Below, one piece after another: positions 4,097 to 18,568 of a DNA stretch of 30,025 nucleotides (positions are counted from its first letter, which is position 1; every line of letters begins with the position of its first letter). The position numbers were made by a program, and so were the translations under genes. The notes under the pieces were generated by a model, which was not told where the DNA came from, searched no databases, and was given only the letters and a program-made list of their open reading frames with translations. The stretch is from positions 1 through 30,025 of the IMG/VR virus record IMGVR_UViG_3300047388_000139; one strand, given 5' to 3'. The stretch comes from a virus.

Positions 4097-4125
4097 ACCA
4101 TAGCCGATCACAAAGGGGTTGACAA
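4097..4125 (-). promoter_or_regulatory. Leftward promoter for polymerase (and primase)
   Basis: On the minus strand, TTGTCA (4125-4120) and TATGGT (4102-4097) are separated by 17 bases. This is 5/6 and 4/6 to the sigma-70 consensus. It is about 60 bases ahead of the polymerase start. Its -35 box overlaps the -35 box of the rightward promoter. Confidence 0.55.
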
Positions 4126-4158
4126 TGTATTTTTATCATGTATGTTGAAACTCAACCC
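4116..4158. promoter_or_regulatory. Operator-like repeats over both promoters
   Basis: GGGTTGA (4116-4122) is matched by the inverted copy TCAACCC (4152-4158). A third half-site GTTGA (4144-4148) forms a short palindrome GTTGA-AAC-TCAAC (4144-4156). The sites cover the shared -35 region and the rightward -10/start region, where a repressor or switch protein would act. The repeats are visible; binding is inferred. Confidence 0.4.
4119..4146 (+). promoter_or_regulatory. Rightward promoter for the recombination operon
   Basis: TTGACA (4119-4124, perfect consensus) and TATGTT (4141-4146, 4/6) are separated by 16 bases in a locally AT-rich stretch. Transcription would start near 4153, shortly before the ribosome site AAGGA (4160-4164) and the first gene at 4173. 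No other good promoter is evident before 9550, so it probably drives the whole plus-strand operon. Confidence 0.65.
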
Positions 4159-4625: not shown

Positions 4626-4853
4626 ATGAAAAAGATTGTTTTGTCGTTTGCTGCTCTCGCTTCCCTCGCCATTCCCGCGCATGCCGGACCTTGCGGCGCT
4701 AAGCCTTGCACTGCCGAAGAGATCAACCGGGCGCTGCAATGGCTGGGGCGTCCCGAACATGAGCAGATCGGCCACAGCCGGGTGCTGCATGATGATGGCG
4801 CGGTTCGTTCTGGCGAGACCCGTCAGACTATTCGTATTCAGAGGGATCACTGA
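4626..4853 (+). CDS. Small exported (periplasmic) protein
   Basis: 75 residues with a clear Sec signal peptide: KK, a hydrophobic core (IVLSFAALASLAIP) and a probable cleavage site after AHA near residue 20. The mature part is about 55 residues with two closely spaced cysteines (GPCGAKPC), which could form a disulfide, and an otherwise charged hydrophilic tail. No lipobox is seen. It starts one base after the previous stop. An exported product in a DNA-metabolism operon is unexpected; superinfection exclusion or envelope modification are possibilities, not conclusions. Confidence 0.75.
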   Translation: MKKIVLSFAALASLAIPAHAGPCGAKPCTAEEINRALQWLGRPEHEQIGHSRVLHDDGAVRSGETRQTIRIQRDH

Positions 4854-9566: not shown

Positions 9567-9597
9567 AACCCCGCCGGATCGCTCCGGCGGGGTTTTT
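9567..9597 (+). terminator. Rho-independent terminator, probably bidirectional
   Basis: A perfect 10-pair GC-rich stem (9569-9578 with 9583-9592), extended by two A-T pairs, encloses the loop TCGC and is followed by TTTTT (9593-9597). On the minus strand the same stem is followed by TTGTTTTC. It therefore ends the plus-strand operon and can also stop the converging late transcript. Confidence 0.93.
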
Positions 9598-9751: not shown

Positions 9752-9831
9752 CAGTTGGTCCAGAATGGAAAAAACAGACCGCCAACCAGAGCGGCAGTGA
9801 TGATAATCGATAGCAGGATGATCAACAGCAT
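9751..9831 (-). CDS. Tiny membrane peptide
   Basis: 26 residues, almost entirely hydrophobic (LLIILLSIIITAALVGG) and ending FFPFWTN. ATG 9831 overlaps the stop of the polysaccharide-lyase-like gene by one base (TGATG), and its own stop overlaps the next ATG in the same way. Two successive couplings make chance less likely, although a protein this short stays uncertain. Together with the next gene it may act in membrane disruption at lysis. Confidence 0.5.
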   Translation of the reverse strand: MLLIILLSIIITAALVGGLFFPFWTN

Positions 9832-10589
9832 CAGTCGGTCCAGACTTGCATATTCCAGAAGACAACCGACAGCGTTTCCGTAGTGGTCGGATTGGTGTTG
9901 GAGCGGTAGATGTCGACTACCCAATAGGTGCCGGTGCCGTAGCCCAGATTGCCTTTGTAATCGACCAACGTCTGACCGTCGCGCCGCACTTTCAGATAGC
10001 CGTCTTGGGTGAACTTTGCATCGACCTGAATGTGGTAGTCGTGGCCGCGTTGAATTTTATTGGTGTCCTTGTACGGCCACATCCACTGATCGTTGGAGCT
10101 GCTCGACCCGCCGGCGATGGCGACCACCTGCATGAAGTCTTTATCAAAATGCAATGAGACTGGCGGCGAAGTGCCGCGTCCCAGTGCGTCATCGTCATTG
10201 TGGATCTCGCCGCAGATCACCCAGTTGCCGGTGGAGATCGTGCCAGGCTCGATCTTGAACCAGTAATCCAGATGCACGTTTTTCCCGGTCGCAAACTTCG
10301 GCCCGTTCATGCCGGCGAAATCGCATTTGGCGTCCCACGGCGAATGATCGCCGTTCTTGACGATGCACTGCGCCTTGGTCTTGTCGGTGATGTTCACGGT
10401 ACCGCTGGTGTGCTTGTAGTAGGTGGTGAAGTCCTCGTAAGGATGATCCGGCGCCGGGTTCGGATCAGGCGGCACCGGATTTGAGCCGCCGCCTGCGGCA
10501 ATCGCCGCATCGAGCGCTTTGATGGCATTGGCGATCTCGTTGCCAAGCGTGGTCGCGGCAGCCGTAATCTTGCTGGTGTCTGTGGCCAT
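9831..10589 (-). CDS. Polysaccharide-lyase-like (jelly-roll) virion or lysis enzyme
   Basis: 252 residues. The N-terminus is a helix (about 1-32), then a Pro-rich linker (PVPPDPNPAPDHP), then a beta-rich domain of about 200 residues. The HLDYWFKIEPG, WVICGEIHNDDD and VSLHFDKDFMQVV segments resemble the concanavalin-like fold of heparin/alginate-type polysaccharide lyases (PF14099-like). It may degrade capsule or exopolysaccharide, as a tail spike or released depolymerase. AAGGAG precedes the ATG. Catalytic residues cannot be assigned safely. It lies between the GH25 lysin and two membrane peptides. Confidence 0.72.
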   Translation of the reverse strand: MATDTSKITAAATTLGNEIANAIKALDAAIAAGGGSNPVPPDPNPAPDHPYEDFTTYYKHTSGTVNITDKTKAQCIVKNGDHSPWDAKCDFAGMNGPKFATGKNVHLDYWFKIEPGTISTGNWVICGEIHNDDDALGRGTSPPVSLHFDKDFMQVVAIAGGSSSSNDQWMWPYKDTNKIQRGHDYHIQVDAKFTQDGYLKVRRDGQTLVDYKGNLGYGTGTYWVVDIYRSNTNPTTTETLSVVFWNMQVWTD

Positions 10590-10605: not shown

Positions 10606-11367
10606 TCAGTCGCCGTAGATTACCTCGCCGTTGACGGCGATTGAAACCGCCACCTCGCCGGAAGTCTGAATGTTGAGATGCACGGTCGCCGTCTCCGACG
10701 GTACGGGTGGTTTTGGTGGTTTCGGCTGTTTCGATCCTGAAGCCCACTCGTCGACTAGATCGGCAGGCGAGTCCTGATACGAGTTGATGTCGCAGGGCCC
10801 GATGCCGTCGACGCTATGCGGGCTCGGTCCGACCTGTCCATCAGTGAACTGCCAAAGCCAGTAGTCGTCCCAGCCCGGCGGCAGCGACGGGCTCGAACCG
10901 TATTGGCATAGCCACAGTCGCCGCTCAGCGAGAAACTCGTCGGGCTTCGTGAGCGCCTCTTTGATGGTGTTGCCGCCGTAGAGCACGCACTCGCCGGGGC
11001 GCTCCAACGCGTCCTCGACCTTGGTGATCCACGCCTTGACATTGCTGAGGCTCATCTTGCCGCTGCCGGACGGGTTGTCTTCCCAGTCCAGCGCAAACAG
11101 CTCGTCGGGGTCCGGGCAGGCGAAGTTCAGGAAATTCTCCACTTGGCCGTCGACGTTGCTGCCGTCGGCGAAGTGATAAGCCCCCCACTTCAAGCCGGCT
11201 TGCTTGGCGGCCTTTTGCTGGTCGGCATAGGTGTCGTCGGTGTAGCCCTGGCCTTCGGTGGCCTTGTAGATGACGCCGACAATACCATCGGCCTTGACTT
11301 TGTTGTAATCCTGCGCCGGATCCCAATGCGACAAGTCCACTACGCGTGGATTGATCGGCTCGCTCAT
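10606..11367 (-). CDS. GH25 muramidase endolysin
   Basis: 253 residues. The fold starts with RVVDLSHWDP (Asp11), followed by IYKATEG (Glu38), WGAYHFADGS and ALDWED (Asp94, Glu96, the catalytic D-x-E pair), and ends near residue 200. This is the GH25 (Chalaropsis lysozyme) pattern, which cleaves peptidoglycan between MurNAc and GlcNAc. After a Lys/Pro linker (QPKPPKPP) comes a short beta-type C-terminal domain, perhaps for binding. The start ATG 11367 overlaps the previous stop (ATGA); the longer open frame upstream is ignored. No signal peptide, so release would need a holin or comparable route. Confidence 0.93.
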   Translation of the reverse strand: MSEPINPRVVDLSHWDPAQDYNKVKADGIVGVIYKATEGQGYTDDTYADQQKAAKQAGLKWGAYHFADGSNVDGQVENFLNFACPDPDELFALDWEDNPSGSGKMSLSNVKAWITKVEDALERPGECVLYGGNTIKEALTKPDEFLAERRLWLCQYGSSPSLPPGWDDYWLWQFTDGQVGPSPHSVDGIGPCDINSYQDSPADLVDEWASGSKQPKPPKPPVPSETATVHLNIQTSGEVAVSIAVNGEVIYGD

Positions 11368-11597
11368 TTTGCTGCCTCCAGCTTCTGTTGCACCTCGTTG
11401 CAGGGCTCGATCACGCTGATGAACTTGCCGTTGGTCAGGCCGATGACGCATTGCACGGTTTCGACCAGCACCTTGTTCTTCTCGCCTTCGACATGCGCCG
11501 AGATGCTGGCGACCTGATCCGGATTGACCAGGGTCGCGCGGCCGTCGACGGTGTGCAGCAGCACCAGATGCAGCGCGACGAAGGCGGACGTGCTCAT
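11364..11597 (-). CDS. Small unknown protein
   Basis: 77 residues with a strand-rich pattern (FVALHLVLLHTVDG, LVNPDQVASI, CVIGLTNGKFISV) that loosely recalls the small FlbD-like fold. The C-terminal helix ends VQQKLEAAK. It starts directly after the stop of the upstream fibre gene and overlaps the GH25 gene (ATGA). Function unknown; the position between fibres and lysin suggests an appendage or lysis accessory. Confidence 0.72.
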   Translation of the reverse strand: MSTSAFVALHLVLLHTVDGRATLVNPDQVASISAHVEGEKNKVLVETVQCVIGLTNGKFISVIEPCNEVQQKLEAAK

Positions 11598-12764
11598 CTA
11601 GAGCCTCGCGTTCAGACTGATGTACGCACCAGCACCATTTTGCGTATAGGCCACGCCAGTTCCGGTCACAGCAATCGAATAATACAGACTGCGTGTGCCA
11701 ACAGTAGGTGTGAGGTTGCTTACATTTACCGGCGTCCATGCCCCTACAAACGCGGATGCCGGGATCGCCCGCATCGCCACCGGGTAGTGAATTGTTGGCC
11801 CGAGACCGGCTCCTGCGGTTGGGGAATAGCCTGACGAGATAATGCAGTCCGTTGCAACATCCCCACCGAGCTTCTGCCAGTAACGTTTACATAGCGCCAG
11901 CTCGCTGGCGTAGTCCGGCACCATGAACGCTGGCGCGACGTTACCCTCGTACAGGCCGACATCGAACAGTTCGAAGACGTTGTTGACCGCGCCCATGAGA
12001 TTGAACTGGTTGGGCGAACTTTGAAAATTACCCGCACTCCATGCTCCAGCAGCCAATTGATTAGTGGTGCCGCACATCAACGACCAGCGAATATAAACCC
12101 CCGCCGTGTTGTCCACAGCCCACGTTCCCGTAACATCCCCAGGAACGACAACTGACTTGACGACATCGGTGTTCGCCTCACCGGCCGCGATAACATACTC
12201 GGCTACATAAGTGCGGTTAGCCGCAGCATTGACGAAAGACATCGAGTAAGTGCCCGCCGGAGCCTTGACACCGAATTGCACGATAAACGTTTTTGCCGCC
12301 GCTGATCCGAACCTTAAATCAGCTACCCTGAAACCTTCAGGATTTTGGCCGATAAAAAGGTAATCGCCAGCCGCTACCGCAGCGTGAGCCGCAGTCGCAG
12401 TCACGCGTAGTCTGTTTGGCGACCCCCCGGGTGTGGCAACTGCTACCTGTTGAAGTGTCGGCGTTCCTGCATTGGAAAAAATACCTCCAAACATATCGAC
12501 CGGATAATATCCGTTAGCCGTCCCTGCCGTCGCGCCGTTCTCTTGCGAGACCTGCATTCCGCCGTTGATGATGTAGTTTTTCTTCATCATCCCGTCGTTG
12601 CTGCGGGCCTGCGCCATCTGGTTGGCGGTCAGGCCCTGCGCGATGTCGTATCTGACCGCGCCGCTCAGCGGCGTCGTCACTGCCTGCAGCCACTTCTCGC
12701 CGTCCCAGCTCCAGCCCTGGTAGATCTGGCCGACGGTCGGCGCGTTGGGAAAATCGAACGCCAT
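11598..12764 (-). CDS. Tail fibre / receptor-binding protein (paralogue 1)
   Basis: 388 residues. A short N-terminal region containing QIYQGWSWDGEKW, then KKNYIINGGMQVSQENG, a beta-rich middle, and the [18 protein letters not shown] stretch seen near the ends of many phage and prophage tail fibres. It is homologous along most of its length to the next upstream gene (12767-14404), which has an extra N-terminal collagen-like part. Both end in NARL. The central and distal part appears more AT-rich than neighbouring structural genes, suggesting exchange of receptor-binding sequence. Confidence 0.85.
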   Translation of the reverse strand: MAFDFPNAPTVGQIYQGWSWDGEKWLQAVTTPLSGAVRYDIAQGLTANQMAQARSNDGMMKKNYIINGGMQVSQENGATAGTANGYYPVDMFGGIFSNAGTPTLQQVAVATPGGSPNRLRVTATAAHAAVAAGDYLFIGQNPEGFRVADLRFGSAAAKTFIVQFGVKAPAGTYSMSFVNAAANRTYVAEYVIAAGEANTDVVKSVVVPGDVTGTWAVDNTAGVYIRWSLMCGTTNQLAAGAWSAGNFQSSPNQFNLMGAVNNVFELFDVGLYEGNVAPAFMVPDYASELALCKRYWQKLGGDVATDCIISSGYSPTAGAGLGPTIHYPVAMRAIPASAFVGAWTPVNVSNLTPTVGTRSLYYSIAVTGTGVAYTQNGAGAYISLNARL

Positions 12765-12766
12765 CC

Positions 12767-14404
12767 TCAGAGCCTCGCGTTAAAAGTAAGCGTTGCCGTA
12801 GCAAGGACGCTATGTGCAGCCGTTTGCCAAAACCTGACCCCATTCTGGTCACCAACCATGGCATACGCAGCGCCAGTGCCTGAACTCACAGAGACCAGTG
12901 TGAGCGCTGGAGCTGCCCGTTTTACGGCTAGTAAACTATGGGTAGGACCCACATTCGCTATCGCACAGGTCACAACGAGGGTCTTTTCCCAATAGCGCAT
13001 GCACGCCATCAACTCGCTGGCGTAATCCGGCACCATGAACGGCGGCGCGGTAGCGCCTTCATAAAGACCGACGTCGAACAGTTCGAAAGTGTTGTTGAGC
13101 GTGCCCATGAAGTTGAGCTGGTTGGCAGTGGCGACGAGGTTTCCAGCCTGCCAGCTGCCGGGAGCGGCCTGAAAGTTCGAACCCGCCATCAAGGTCCATG
13201 AAATCACCAACCCGGCAGTGTTGTCGATTGGCCATGTCCCGATTTGATCAAGCGGAATGACGACGGACTTGACGACATCCGTGTAGCTTTCTCCCGCCGC
13301 GATGGTAAATTCCGCGACGTAGCTGCGATTATTTGCAGTATTGCGTATCGCGACGCAGTAGGTGCCAGCCGGAGCCCAAACCCCGAATTGCAGGGTAACG
13401 GTTTTTGCGGACGCCGATCCTGCTTTCAGATCGGCAGCGCGCAACCCTTCGATATTTTGCATCAGAATAAAAACATCTGACGCAGCGACGGACGCATGGA
13501 CCAAGCTGGCTGTAATTCGAATACGGTTAGGTGAGCCTGCCGGCGTCACTTTTGCGACCTGCGAAAGCGTTGGCGTCGTGCCGGAACTGATAGCCGTCAA
13601 AAACTGATCGACGGGGTAATAACTGTTAGTAGTTCCCTGTGCCGCTCCGTTCTCCTGCGACATCATCATTGCGCCGTTGACGACATAATTTTTCTTCATC
13701 AACGCGATGTTGCTGCGCGCCTGCGCCTGCTGATTGGCGGTCAGCGTCTGCGCGATATCGAACCGCACCGCGCTGCCGCTGATGCCGCCGGGGACCATCA
13801 CCCACTGCGTGGAGGTGCCGTCGTTGTAGCGCGAGAACATCAGACCGGTGTCGGTCTCGATCCACAGCGATTTGTCCGGCACCCCGACCGGCGGCGTGTC
13901 CGCCATGTACACGGTTGAACCACCGCCTGCGGCTATCGGGTGAACGTGGTCCTCGCGGGCGTATTTGGTCGCGGTACCGACCGCGCCGGTGCCGCTCTCG
14001 ATCAACGGGATGGCGGTCGCAGGCGCCGGGAGAGCTGCGTTGGTGGCGTAGCCTTGCGCCTTGACGAAAGCCGTCGTCGCAATTGAGGTGTCGCTATCCG
14101 CCGTCGCAGGGGTCGGGGCTTGCGGATCGCCGGTGAAGACCGGCGAAGCCAGCGGCGCCAAGGCGGCAATGGCCACGCCGCCATCCTTGATGAGCGTGCC
14201 GCTGGTGCCGTTGAACACCGCGATGTTATTGTTGGTGGAGCTGGCGGGGCCGTTGACGTTGCCGGTGCCGGTGCCGCTGGCGCCCTGCGGTCCCTGCGGC
14301 CCCTGTGGTCCAGGCACGCCTTGGGGCCCGACAGGACCTGTAGGCCCGACGGGACCTTGCGACCCGGTCGGGCCCTTGATGTTGGTTTCCGTGCTCCAGC
14401 TCAT
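12767..14404 (-). CDS. Tail fibre with collagen-like N-terminus (paralogue 2)
   Basis: 545 residues. After a 10-residue leader come 12 G-X-Y triplets (11-46), a spacer region with [20 protein letters not shown] and [14 protein letters not shown] motifs common in phage fibres, and then a body homologous to the neighbouring 388-residue fibre ([32 protein letters not shown], terminal NARL). The collagen-like part would form a trimeric stalk holding the receptor-binding end. It overlaps the upstream gene by ATGA (14401-14404), so the two are coupled. Confidence 0.87.
14267..14374 (-). repeat. Collagen-like G-X-Y repeat in fibre gene
   Basis: Twelve consecutive G-X-Y triplets (residues 11-46 of the fibre), with Pro at many X positions and Gln or Val at Y. 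At DNA level it is a run of near-repeated GGN-CCN-containing 9-base units. Such stretches are prone to recombination and length change. Confidence 0.9.
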
Positions 14405-15006
14405 GCCACCGTCCCCTTGAACACGGTCCAGCTGCTGGTCAGGTCGCTCCAGCGCCAGACGTCGCCGCTGGTTTCATCGAGCCACATGTCGCCTTCGATC
14501 CGGGTGTCCGGAACGTTGCCGGGGGCTCCGGCGCCGGTGTACCAACGCGAGCCGCGCAGGCCCTGGTCGCCTTGCACGCCGCGCGGCCCCATCGGGCCCG
14601 TCGGCCCCATAGGCCCAACCGAATAGCTCGCCGGCGCCAACGGCCCGTAAATCGCGTAGCCGTATCCGGTGAGATCGATCCGGCCGCACGCGATCATGTC
14701 CTGCGGTTGCAGTTGATCGTTGCGGGTGTAGACCTCGATGTTGAACCTGTCGTTCATCACCGAGGCCGGCAAGGTGGCGATGCCCGAGGCTCCGCTGACG
14801 TCGTGAACCACGATGTCATAGCCGTAGATGCCGCTGTCGGTGAACGGCAGCATCACCAGTTGCGGGTTGAGGCCGACGATGTCGGTATACGGCAGCCCGT
14901 CCAGGCCTTTGAAGTAAAACCGCACGTCGCCCGGCATGCCGGCGGCCTGCGCAAAGCCGATTTCATCCGGCAACGTAGGGTTGACATAGATCGTTGCTGT
15001 GTGCAT
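14401..15006 (-). CDS. Appendage / fibre-adaptor protein with collagen-like segment
   Basis: 201 residues from ATG 15006, with GGTGGGG about seven bases upstream; a TTG two codons earlier is possible. The N-terminal 125 residues look like an Ig-like or beta-sandwich virion domain ([37 protein letters not shown]). Eight G-X-Y triplets follow (about 131-154), then a short tail domain with [16 protein letters not shown], typical of fibre attachment ends. It is coupled to the collagen-like fibre downstream and may form the base of the same appendage. Confidence 0.78.
14545..14616 (-). repeat. Second collagen-like G-X-Y repeat
   Basis: Eight G-X-Y triplets beginning [13 protein letters not shown]. 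It lies about 170 bases from the collagen-like repeat of the next gene and is similar to it in coding pattern. Confidence 0.85.
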
Positions 15007-15009
15007 ATT
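14981..15009 (+). promoter_or_regulatory. Plus-strand promoter inside a virion gene
   Basis: TTGACA (14981-14986, perfect) and CATATT (15004-15009, 4/6) with the ideal 17-base spacing, within the 5' end of the minus-strand appendage gene. It points toward the isolated plus-strand gene at 15042; the leader would be about 25 bases and contain GAGAAGG (15024-15030). Confidence 0.65.
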
Positions 15010-15041
15010 CAAACCCCACCACTGAGAAGGTTATTTCCCCG

Positions 15042-15329
15042 ATGAAGACCCTGATTGCCGCAGCCCTGCTGCTCGCCCTGACCGTTCCGGCACACGCTAC
15101 TAGATTTCGCGAGAGTGATCGCAAGTGGTTGCCGGTCATAGAAATGTACCAAGACCGGGCTGGCGCATGTCACAGCGCGTCCGACGAGGATGATACGGCT
15201 TGCATAGCTGCGGAGAAGTTGACGAAAAAACTCGAAACCGCTGGTTACTGCCTTTACGCCCGGGACGCCGTCGGCCGTCCTAGCAAGGACCGGAAGCATT
15301 GTTACGAGATCGAGTTTCCCGGGAAGTAG
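15042..15329 (+). CDS. Exported cysteine-containing protein, moron-like
   Basis: 95 residues with a clear signal peptide (MKTLIAAALLLALTVPAHA, cleavage near residue 19). The mature part is about 76 residues, mainly helical, with four cysteines (GACHSAS, DDTACIAA, AGYCLYAR, KHCYEIE) that could form two disulfides. The frame extends a little upstream, but ATG 15042 begins the signal peptide and follows GAGAAGG. It is the only plus-strand gene in about 20 kb of minus-strand virion genes and has its own promoter, the signature of a moron expressed apart from the lytic block. Family not recognised; an envelope-level superinfection or lysozyme-inhibitor role is speculation. Confidence 0.8.
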   Translation: MKTLIAAALLLALTVPAHATRFRESDRKWLPVIEMYQDRAGACHSASDEDDTACIAAEKLTKKLETAGYCLYARDAVGRPSKDRKHCYEIEFPGK

Positions 15330-15331
15330 CA

Positions 15332-18300
15332 TCACCGTCCTCCCAGCAAGGATTGCGTCTGCGGCCAACCCGCTATCCTGCGCGCCATGGCGTCCCTCAT
15401 GGCGTCGATGCTGGTATTGCCCAGTTCTCTGGCTTGGTCTTGTTGCCGGCGAACCGGCGTTCCGGTATCGCCGATCAGCATCCTTTCCGACCAAGTCGTG
15501 CTCTGTGGTGCAAACTGTATGCCCTGCAGCAGGGATGCCGCCAACGCCGGGTCCTGCACGCCTCTGAGATAACCGGCGTTCGGCGAGGAAGCGATATAGT
15601 CGCCATAGGCAGCGATCTGCTGGGCGAGCGGGGCGCGTCGATATTGATCGTAGGTCAAGCCGCCGAGTGTACCGCCAGCGGTCTTGAAATCCGCTGGGGC
15701 GATCTGAAACGCCCCCGCTTGGGTCCCGGTGCGGGATCGCGGGTTCCAGGTGCCGCCGGTTTCCAACCCCCCGACGCTCGCGATGGCCTCGGGCGGGATG
15801 TTGAACCTGTCGGCTACCGACTGGATAGCTTTGACAACATCAGCGTTTCTCTGGGTTGCAGGGATGCTCGACTGCCAGCTCGGCATCGTCGGGCCTGCCG
15901 GCTGCGGTATCTGCTGAAAGGTGCTGTAGTCGTTTGCAGGGCTCTGGAAGTCGCGCATGCTCGACGGCGCAGTGCTGTCCCCCGTAAAACGGTCATTGAA
16001 GCTGGCGGGATAAGCCTCGTCCGGCCATTGCTGCGGGGTGTAGCCGAGCAGGTCTTGCGAGCTGGGCATGCCGCCAGGCAATGCCACGCGATCCCATACG
16101 CTGCCGCTGCCGTCACCCGCGATGCCGTGCGGGCGCGACATGGTAGCCGCCGAACCTGTTGGCACGGGTAGGTCCCCCAATCCAAGCGCGGCACCCAACG
16201 GCGTAGACGGCTCTGCCGGCCCATACGGCGGCGTGTAGTAGCTAAACCCGCGCGCTTTCAAGGCCGCCAACTGGTCTTGATTTAGAAATTCAGTCCTGCG
16301 GTCTTCGACATTGCCGCTTCTGGTGAAATCGGCGTACGAGCTGGCGCCGCCGATGGTCTGGTTTTCCGGGCGCTGCATCACGCCGCTGCCTACCATCGGC
16401 TCGTAGATGCCGGCATTCCATTCCGGCGTGCCTGCCTTCGGGATGTCCCAATAGTCGGGGCTTCTGGTGCCAGCACCGGCTTGCGGCGGACCAGCCTCCT
16501 CCGCGCCGAACCGGGGCGGCGAAGCCAGTTGGCCCTGGGCGATAGCTTTGTTGAAATCAGCTTGGGTGATGCCAAGCTGGGGCAGATACGGCCCGATGCC
16601 GGACCGGATCATGCCGCCGGTCATGGCGTTGCCCAGCGCCTCGCGCAGGGTCTGGCTGGCGATGCTGGACGGGACACGGTCGGCGTTATCAGGCGAGTTC
16701 TTCCGCACCAGATCGCCAACGTTGCTGTCGAGCACGCTATGGGCCTGGGCAAGGTTAGCCGCCGCATTAGGGCGCGCGGTAGGTAGCGGAACGGGCTCTG
16801 CCGGAGGTGCGATGACGTCGCTTCTGACATCGTTGACGGGAATGTCTGCCGGCGGACGCGGCGCATTCGGATCCCACTCGACCGGGCCCTCGGGCCTCGC
16901 CGGGAACGGCGCCGCCGTGCCCGGGATATCGCCGGGAGGTCGCGGCGCATTCGGGTACGGATCTTGGTAGGCTTGCTCTTGATACTTCTCCATACCCTGC
17001 GGCGTAAGCGTGGTGTGAAGATGCGCGCCTTGTGTTATCCCTGGAATAGGGTTCCGCGCTTCATCGATGAAGAAATAATCCCCGCCTCTGCCCTCCGTCA
17101 TTCCCCGAGCCCCGAACAGCTCGCGGATTTTGTTCATTGCCGTGTCGGCTTCTGCAGGCGTGTGGGCGCGGGTGTCGAAAGCCAAAGCATCACTATGCTG
17201 CGACCCGGGTCTGTAAAGTTCATGTCCCGGACCCCGGTAGTCCGAAGTCATCACCAAATCCTGCGCCGCCAACTCCTGTTTGAGCGTGTTGCGGAGAGTA
17301 TCTACCTTCCCCGCTGTACTCATGTCGGCTGGCTCGACCCGATCAGGCGCCTCGTCGGGCCGCCTTCTGGGCAGCGGAATAGCCGCTGCATCGGCAGGCG
17401 GTTCGGGAATTTGCGGCGGCGCTGGCGGCCCCTCGGGCGTGCCCATCAGCTTCGCCAGTCGATCCCTGGCCTGCGCCATCAGATCGGCAGCCGGTAGGCC
17501 ACCGCCCGGTGTCAGCGCCCCGCCAGCTGTTTTATCGGCCTCCGAGCCCCCCGTGAGTTGCGGACGGCCTTCGGCTTGGCTGAGGAAACGCTCCGGGTCG
17601 TTAGCGGAAGTGACGTCGAAATAGCGGTCGAAAGACGAAGTGGCTTGCGGCCCGACCGTCTGATACCGGTTCGGCTCGGCCGGCGGCTGATAGGTCGCGC
17701 CCTGCAGCCCGCCCCAGTCGAGCCCGCCGACGCCGAGGCCGCCGCCATAGGGTCCGGCAAACTCGGTCCCTGATATCGGAGACGTCCCGACATCGAACGG
17801 ACTGGCCGGCGTGCTTTGCGGCTGCGGCATCGTCATCGGCGAGTTCAATCCGCCCGGCATCGCCATGCCGGGGTAAGGATCGGCGGTCGCCGTCTGCGGC
17901 TGCGGTTGCGGCTGCGGCTGCTGTTGCGGTTGCTGCGGGAAGGTCATCGGCGAGTTCAGCCCGCCCGGCATCGCCATGCTAGGGGCTGGATCTTCCCGCA
18001 TGCTGCCGCCGCTCCACAGCTTCGACCAATCGAAGCCGCCGCTCGACGGTCCGGACATCGGCGAGTTCAAGCCTCCCGGCATCGACATGCCGGGGAACGG
18101 GTCTTGCCTCGCGCCGGACATATTGCCTGCGGCGCTGCCGACACTGCCCCAGTCGATGGACGGCCCGCTATACCCACCGCCACCGTTGCCGAGGCCGCCG
18201 CTGAACGGGTTGCCCACCTGGCTCAGATCGAGCGCGCCCGCGCCGCCGGACGTATAGCCGAAAGGCCCCGGGCCGGTATCGAAGGACGGCATGCTGTAGC

Positions 18301-18568
18301 CGCCCCCGGGCGTCCTGCCGGGGTCCATGTTCGCGAACGCGCCCTCGGGACTGTTCGGCATCGCCATGGCTGCGGACGTTATGAGATTGGCGGTATACTG
18401 CTCGGACGCCCTCAGATTATTCGTAAGGTTACTGAATTGGTTCTGAGCGTAAGCCGCCGGCGCCGCATACCCCGCAGTTGGGTTTATCTGCGGGTTGTAG
18501 GAGAATTGCGGGGCGAAGAAGTTGCCGCCGCCGAAGCCCATATTGGGGATGCCGGAAACGTCGCTCAT
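15332..18568 (-). CDS. Large virion protein with M15-like peptidase and SLT transglycosylase domains
   Basis: 1078 residues. The first 300 are Gly/Pro/Gln-rich and contain three 16-residue repeats spaced exactly 37 residues apart (156-171, 193-208, 230-245). Around 420-525 is a possible D-Ala-D-Ala/M15-type metallopeptidase: SQHSDALAFD (His458, Asp465) and HLH (516-518) match the zinc-ligand pattern. A Pro-rich linker region follows. Residues about 910-1010 form a lytic transglycosylase (SLT) domain with catalytic Glu936 in GGLETGG, then GAFQIAPADF. It is probably an injected or tail-tip protein that opens peptidoglycan. The peptidase call is less certain than the SLT call. Confidence 0.82.
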   Translation of the reverse strand: MSDVSGIPNMGFGGGNFFAPQFSYNPQINPTAGYAAPAAYAQNQFSNLTNNLRASEQYTANLITSAAMAMPNSPEGAFANMDPGRTPGGGYSMPSFDTGPGPFGYTSGGAGALDLSQVGNPFSGGLGNGGGGYSGPSIDWGSVGSAAGNMSGARQDPFPGMSMPGGLNSPMSGPSSGGFDWSKLWSGGSMREDPAPSMAMPGGLNSPMTFPQQPQQQPQPQPQPQTATADPYPGMAMPGGLNSPMTMPQPQSTPASPFDVGTSPISGTEFAGPYGGGLGVGGLDWGGLQGATYQPPAEPNRYQTVGPQATSSFDRYFDVTSANDPERFLSQAEGRPQLTGGSEADKTAGGALTPGGGLPAADLMAQARDRLAKLMGTPEGPPAPPQIPEPPADAAAIPLPRRRPDEAPDRVEPADMSTAGKVDTLRNTLKQELAAQDLVMTSDYRGPGHELYRPGSQHSDALAFDTRAHTPAEADTAMNKIRELFGARGMTEGRGGDYFFIDEARNPIPGITQGAHLHTTLTPQGMEKYQEQAYQDPYPNAPRPPGDIPGTAAPFPARPEGPVEWDPNAPRPPADIPVNDVRSDVIAPPAEPVPLPTARPNAAANLAQAHSVLDSNVGDLVRKNSPDNADRVPSSIASQTLREALGNAMTGGMIRSGIGPYLPQLGITQADFNKAIAQGQLASPPRFGAEEAGPPQAGAGTRSPDYWDIPKAGTPEWNAGIYEPMVGSGVMQRPENQTIGGASSYADFTRSGNVEDRRTEFLNQDQLAALKARGFSYYTPPYGPAEPSTPLGAALGLGDLPVPTGSAATMSRPHGIAGDGSGSVWDRVALPGGMPSSQDLLGYTPQQWPDEAYPASFNDRFTGDSTAPSSMRDFQSPANDYSTFQQIPQPAGPTMPSWQSSIPATQRNADVVKAIQSVADRFNIPPEAIASVGGLETGGTWNPRSRTGTQAGAFQIAPADFKTAGGTLGGLTYDQYRRAPLAQQIAAYGDYIASSPNAGYLRGVQDPALAASLLQGIQFAPQSTTWSERMLIGDTGTPVRRQQDQARELGNTSIDAMRDAMARRIAGWPQTQSLLGGR
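17834..18103 (-). repeat. Three in-frame repeats, 111-base period
   Basis: The copies at 17834-17881, 17945-17992 and 18056-18103 encode DPxPxMxMPGGLNSPM. They are separated by exactly 111 bases but have unrelated linkers, one of which is Gln/Pro-rich. The motif resembles a docking or structural repeat in a disordered region. Confidence 0.88.

Follow-up and report, generated by a model that had tools for sequence, protein, structure and literature searches.

Several known systems resemble in part the locus described here. Polymorphic toxins have a conserved export front end followed by a variable C-terminal payload. Phages T5 and BF23 carry unrelated llp genes that perform an equal task next to their receptor-binding genes, oad and hrs (PMC4728585, PMC9586334). 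In phage T4, the early gene for Spackle (gp61.3) encodes a 97-amino-acid precursor of a 75-amino-acid, disulfide-containing mature periplasmic protein that takes part in superinfection exclusion and inhibits the tail lysozyme (PMC7677548). Here we describe a locus in a virus record of 30,025 bases, a 30 kb fragment (the window), from an uncultured group of soil phages. Its product, of 95 amino acids as a precursor and 76 when mature, compares in size with the 97 and 75 amino acids of Spackle, and its gene lies beside a virion gene with a muralytic domain. We propose, with a rough probability of 45%, that the locus may be an export cassette with exchangeable cargo that serves superinfection exclusion.

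A plus-strand gene in the virion block

Other large genes between about 9.8 and 30 kb of the window read as virion or lysis genes on the minus strand, so that one small gene, here called the slot gene, stands alone on the plus strand there. The features of the locus, with one element from elsewhere in the window, are as follows.

4119–4146, plus strand: second promoter match scoring 10/12, TTGACA-16-TATGTT, with which the plus-strand early block opens
14401–15006, minus strand: opposing conserved tail gene, collagen-like, 201 amino acids from its ATG (the list of open reading frames starts it at TTG 15012)
14981–14986, plus strand: −35 hexamer TTGACA, antisense to the Tyr7-Val8-Asn9 codons of the opposing tail gene
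15004–15009, plus strand: −10 hexamer CATATT; the tail-gene ATG, read in reverse complement, overlaps it
15024–15030, plus strand: Shine–Dalgarno-like GAGAAGG, the AAGG core of which is kept before the gene in relatives
15042–15329, plus strand: slot gene, from ATG 15042 to the stop at 15329, 95 amino acids
15042–15098, plus strand: signal peptide MKTLIAAALLLALTVPAHA (export part, conserved among relatives)
15099–15329, plus strand: mature cargo of type A and stop, 76 amino acids with four cysteines, replaced in relatives
15332–18568, minus strand: large virion-block protein, 1,078 amino acids, convergent with the slot gene, the two stops 2 bases apart
15500–15844, minus strand: C-terminal peptidase/transglycosylase-like domain of the 1,078-amino-acid protein (residues 909–1023; phrog_21656 'peptidase', E 1.3e-5)

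The signal peptide MKTLIAAALLLALTVPAHA is followed by T, and this AHA/T cleavage context is compatible with signal peptidase I. Read directly, the context holds no lipobox cysteine; a signal peptide without a lipobox leads us to expect a soluble periplasmic product, and the periplasm is very probably where the cargo resides. A sequence-only reading of the window had described a lone plus-strand gene for a four-cysteine protein bearing a signal peptide, which agrees with the 95-amino-acid open reading frame and its four-cysteine mature part. A start at TTG 14994 is not supported; the start is conserved, as ATG or GTG, at the position of ATG 15042. Comparison with the relative L001 indicates that the slot gene encodes a real protein that is changing faster than the adjacent tail gene (mature part, Ka 0.45, Ks 1.25, Ka/Ks 0.36; tail gene, Ka 0.17, Ks 0.88, Ka/Ks 0.19). 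The slot gene has a GC content of 57.6% (window, 61.4%), and a consensus scan of 14000–16500 returned no match to a plus-strand intrinsic terminator after 15329.

Relatives of the locus

Slot-protein homology identified one viral contig, L001 (55% identity overall, equal slot and all four cysteines conserved). At E 1, no homologue was found in 50,697 phage records; none was found in plasmids or in bacterial contigs, the latter searched by pattern. Pattern matches at L019, L024 and L048 were judged by eye to be due to chance. The earlier reading had considered that homologues might turn out always to be chromosomal housekeeping genes; with no homologue from these phage, plasmid and bacterial-contig searches, the slot gene does not resemble one. 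A search with the tail protein revealed more slot-bearing contigs (L003, L004/L005, L007, L008, L009 and L033). Given that the record of L004 (G004) duplicates that of L005 and is chimeric, there are seven distinct slot-bearing relatives besides the window. G004 (79,810 bases; L059–L062) is an IMG/VR contig that joins two different phages, with a 127-base repeat and a GC content of 51–57% up to approximately 52 kb and 62–67% thereafter; it was rejected as independent of G003, as its right part is 99.98% identical over 27.8 kb. More distant relatives (L034–L044; tail 51–62% identical) lack the slot gene and have another gene upstream of the tail gene. Contigs bearing different cargo derive from common samples (3300045120 and 3300037070).

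Constant front end and exchanged cargo

In every slot-bearing phage the slot gene begins MK(T/S)LI..., with a GTG start in L009, and (P/S)AHA closes the signal peptide in most. Between pairs of slot genes, 27–40 of the first 48 bases of signal-peptide DNA agree, compared with at most 24 of 48 between slots and 40 rhizobial control signal peptides. The slot signal peptides are therefore homologous rather than merely alike in function; the same controls led us to reject chance resemblance. The early block of the window encodes a second small exported-type protein (4626–4853, plus strand; 75 amino acids, MKKIVLSFAALASLAIPAHA then GPCGAKPC...), the signal-peptide DNA of which is unlike that of the slot (15–23 of 48 bases).

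The mature parts, compared by local alignment against shuffled sequences, score as mutually unrelated except within type A (window and L001), within type C (L007 and L033) and for a B-like half: the C-terminal half of the L007 protein resembles the L004 cargo (z 6.9), so the L007 cargo is a fusion of C and B parts. Types D (L008), E (L009, cut by the contig end) and F (the second gene of L033) match nothing. By these scores the mature parts represent at least six unrelated types (A–F), and these small proteins mostly contain cysteines. L033 holds two tandem cassettes with like signal peptides and different cargo. Cargo D (L008 4704–4967, minus strand) contains a motif, KEGIRDYRRGLC...WIRGYEYAG, that we take to resemble ribosome modulation factor, an odd thing to find behind a signal peptide.

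The boundary of homology falls at the end of the signal peptide. The blastn alignments of the window with G002 and G008 extend across the tail gene, the leader and the signal peptide, of which the penultimate base, 15097, is the last one aligned. The tail genes of the window and L003 differ at about 1 base in 10, and the last 80 shared bases, comprising leader and signal peptide, are identical up to the end of the L003 contig. Two contigs break off within the slot gene, as happens in assembly where strains differ; this is only suggestive. The tail gene of the window is closer to that of L008 (pS 0.35) than to that of L001 (0.52), yet the cargo is common to the window and L001, so that kinship in the tail gene does not predict the cargo. 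From these alignments we hold with high confidence that the locus is a swappable export cassette, in which a constant promoter and signal peptide precede unrelated mature parts.

The window and L001 also differ in their endolysins although both phages carry cargo A: as read from sequence, the former has a GH25-like gene (10606–11739, minus strand) and the latter an apparently unrelated GH24-like lysozyme gene (L001 1253–1828, minus strand). Next to the window endolysin gene, 9831–10589 (minus strand; 252 amino acids) resembles a polysaccharide lyase in its sequence and may encode a depolymerase.

None of the family libraries (Pfam, PHROGs, NCBIfam and PADLOC) recognizes any cargo tested, in line with the initial description of the family as unrecognized; matches were weak and below curated cut-offs where such exist. 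A match to PepSY_2 (E 0.012) was discarded because it is below the cut-off and overlaps the signal peptide. The AlphaFold2 model of cargo A, made from two sequences, has a pLDDT of 84.7 and a helix–helix–three-strand arrangement. Foldseek and VIA gave no significant match for this model among PDB and viral models, an absence that proves nothing; Spackle is not among the fold matches listed, and no PDB sequence match to the cargo A profile was better than E 0.77. The cargo C model (pLDDT 44) was discarded.

Promoter-like element

On the plus strand, TTGACA is followed by a 17-base spacer and CATATT, together scoring 10/12 against a sigma-70-like consensus (CATATT itself, 4/6); the perfect TTGACA and 17-base spacing within the start of an opposing virion gene are present just as the earlier reading had them. 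A score of 10/12 was reached in 6 of 2,000 random 160-base samples from the virion region of the window, and the 30,025 bases contain two such matches, at 4119 and 14981. The former belongs to a divergent promoter-like pair (4097–4146) that separates the DNA polymerase gene from the plus-strand early block, with hexamers TTGACA-16-TATGTT (plus) and TTGTCA-17-TATGGT (minus). A strong terminator-like hairpin (9567–9594, minus strand; 12 pairs, 9 of them GC, T-rich downstream) lies where the early and late blocks converge.

At the −35 position, TTGACA occurs at an equal offset in seven of the eight slot-bearing phages and TTGACG in the remaining one, whereas slotless relatives (n = 7) have TCGATG or TCGACG. 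The −10 hexamer CATATT is identical in L001, L003 and L009, weaker in L007, L008 and L033, and missing from L004. The best promoter scores near the slot are 10/12 in the window, L001, L003 and L009, 9 in L007, 8 in L033 and 7 in L004; L008 reaches 9 using a different hexamer pair. Slotless phages score 6–8 at the corresponding place, a comparison that is confounded by common descent. Extra synonymous constraint on the promoter was considered and rejected: tail codons 1–10 show a similarly low synonymous rate in slotless phages, and low synonymous change over the promoter codons is thus no proof of promoter selection.

Junction with the convergent neighbour

Relatives of the large neighbouring protein exceed the Pfam cut-off for SLT (L008) or Amidase_2 (L004). 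In phages with both flanks, the final slot gene (in L033, the second cassette) always adjoins the stop codon of this neighbour: the ends range from an overlap of a few bases to a 9-base gap for single slot genes, and in L033 the second cassette occupies the gap before the neighbour. The last 250 residues of the neighbour are of four types: one in the window, one common to L001, L007 and L033, and one each in L004 and L008. Both these C-termini and the cargo types vary, indicating that the junction has been exchanged on both sides.

This arrangement could reflect a strict pair of the Spackle type, in which each cargo acts in the periplasm specifically to inhibit the peptidoglycan-degrading domain of the convergent neighbour and protects the infected cell against premature damage to its wall or against particles of its own phage. 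Such a pair would account for the constant adjacency, for the exchange of both the slot gene and a neighbour with muralytic domains, and for precursor and mature sizes that match those of Spackle (PMC7677548). However, the pairing is not one-to-one: cargo A is found next to two unrelated neighbour C-termini (window and L001), and the C-terminus common to L001, L007 and L033 occurs with both cargo A and cargo C. The inhibited domain could instead be the central one of the neighbour. We consider a dedicated pair of this kind unlikely.

Possible functions of the cassette

Superinfection exclusion is the best fit for a gene with replaceable cargo that has an early-type promoter, would yield a soluble exported product and lies next to genes for adsorption or entry. 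In this reading, the host RNA polymerase would transcribe the cassette early, a step that we regard as probable, while the virion genes of the opposite strand are still silent. The product would be cleaved, would fold with disulfides in the periplasm and would there stop the entry of a second phage, by one of two routes: the receptor or entry channel may be jammed, as by Llp of T5 and BF23, or a wall-degrading or ejection protein of the incoming particle may be neutralized, as by Spackle of T4. Between a receptor and a muralytic target we see about even chances. As competitors change, cargo would be pressed towards replacement while the promoter and signal peptide are reused. Counting against exclusion, L004 (7/12), L033 (8/12) and L008 have a weak or unclear promoter match; counting against a Spackle-type action in particular, the predicted fold of cargo A is not an all-helical bundle.

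The early-type promoter would equally serve a takeover of the host envelope or a counter-defence, in which the exported proteins neutralize a periplasmic host factor (a protease, nuclease or defence sensor) and not a competing phage. The higher Ka/Ks of the cargo (0.36, against 0.19 for the tail gene) and its replacement suit any arms race. However, no PADLOC or other family match was obtained and nothing points positively to a host factor, and we think this improbable.

Less probable still is a moron for lysogenic conversion or general host fitness that alters the envelope of the carrier cell, as might be suggested by the promoter match, the exported-type product, the patchy occurrence and the slightly lower GC content (57.6% against 61.4%). 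Searches for integrase and resolvase (PF00589 and PF00239) found none in the related records examined, several of which are 40–42 kb long, and plasmids and bacterial contigs hold no homologue. Expression in the lysogen, one of the two possibilities named in the sequence-only reading, is therefore unsupported, and early expression is the better guess. Exchange of cargo behind a retained promoter and signal peptide, the main feature of the locus, was beyond the reach of that reading. The description there of a self-promoted exported gene in the virion block stands at the level of sequence, through the promoter match and signal peptide, and the term 'moron' applies in part: the promoter match, patchy occurrence and slightly lower GC content fit, whereas a terminator match and a clean empty site are missing. 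A search for a phage RNA polymerase (PF00940) gave no match, but neither did the control.

A lysis accessory on the opposite strand (spanin-like or a timing factor) is very unlikely: a small exported-type protein does lie near the GH25-like endolysin gene, but it is encoded opposite to the late genes behind its own promoter match, has neither a lipobox nor a transmembrane anchor, and is replaced by unrelated cargo in close relatives.

Superinfection exclusion by an exchangeable cargo can be extended, more tentatively, to a dedicated phage 'effector socket': a promoter and signal peptide that stay the same, within an overlapping virion gene or adjacent to it, and that receive one unrelated periplasmic effector after another. 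This doubtful but possible extension would take in tandem and fused cargo, exchange of the convergent wall-degrading domain and different types of exclusion within one soil community. If the slot does decide superinfection, exclusion proteins missed by family searches could be discovered by position, and reading what follows the common signal peptide would be a way to find them. It would then be possible to compare the six unannotated cargo types of this phage group in one expression frame, making the specificity of exchange measurable. Exclusion, if true, would also show how an early promoter read by the host can persist inside an opposing virion gene.

Comparison with known systems

Compared with polymorphic toxins, the cassette is of minimal size, shares the signal peptide alone, and has no visible immunity partner and no recognized toxin domain. 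Like phage morons, the slot gene is an added gene among virion genes with its own promoter (here a sequence match); unlike them, it has no terminator match, its empty site is not clean and its cargo is modular. Gene order differs in the slotless relatives, in contrast to the empty junction of a moron. Spackle is a helical bundle, whereas cargo A is predicted to form two helices and three strands with four cysteines, and the two have no sequence match. Llp of T5 and BF23 is a lipoprotein, in contrast to the slot product without a lipobox; neither T5 Llp nor Cor matches the slot in sequence, and the slot lies next to a virion protein to which no receptor-binding role is assigned. The slot would at most work like Llp or Spackle, and by its sequence belongs to neither. 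As with the llp genes, a small exported protein is encoded next to a gene for adsorption or for the virion, and unrelated sequences share one place in related phages; in contrast to llp, the slot keeps its signal peptide and promoter and changes the mature part only.
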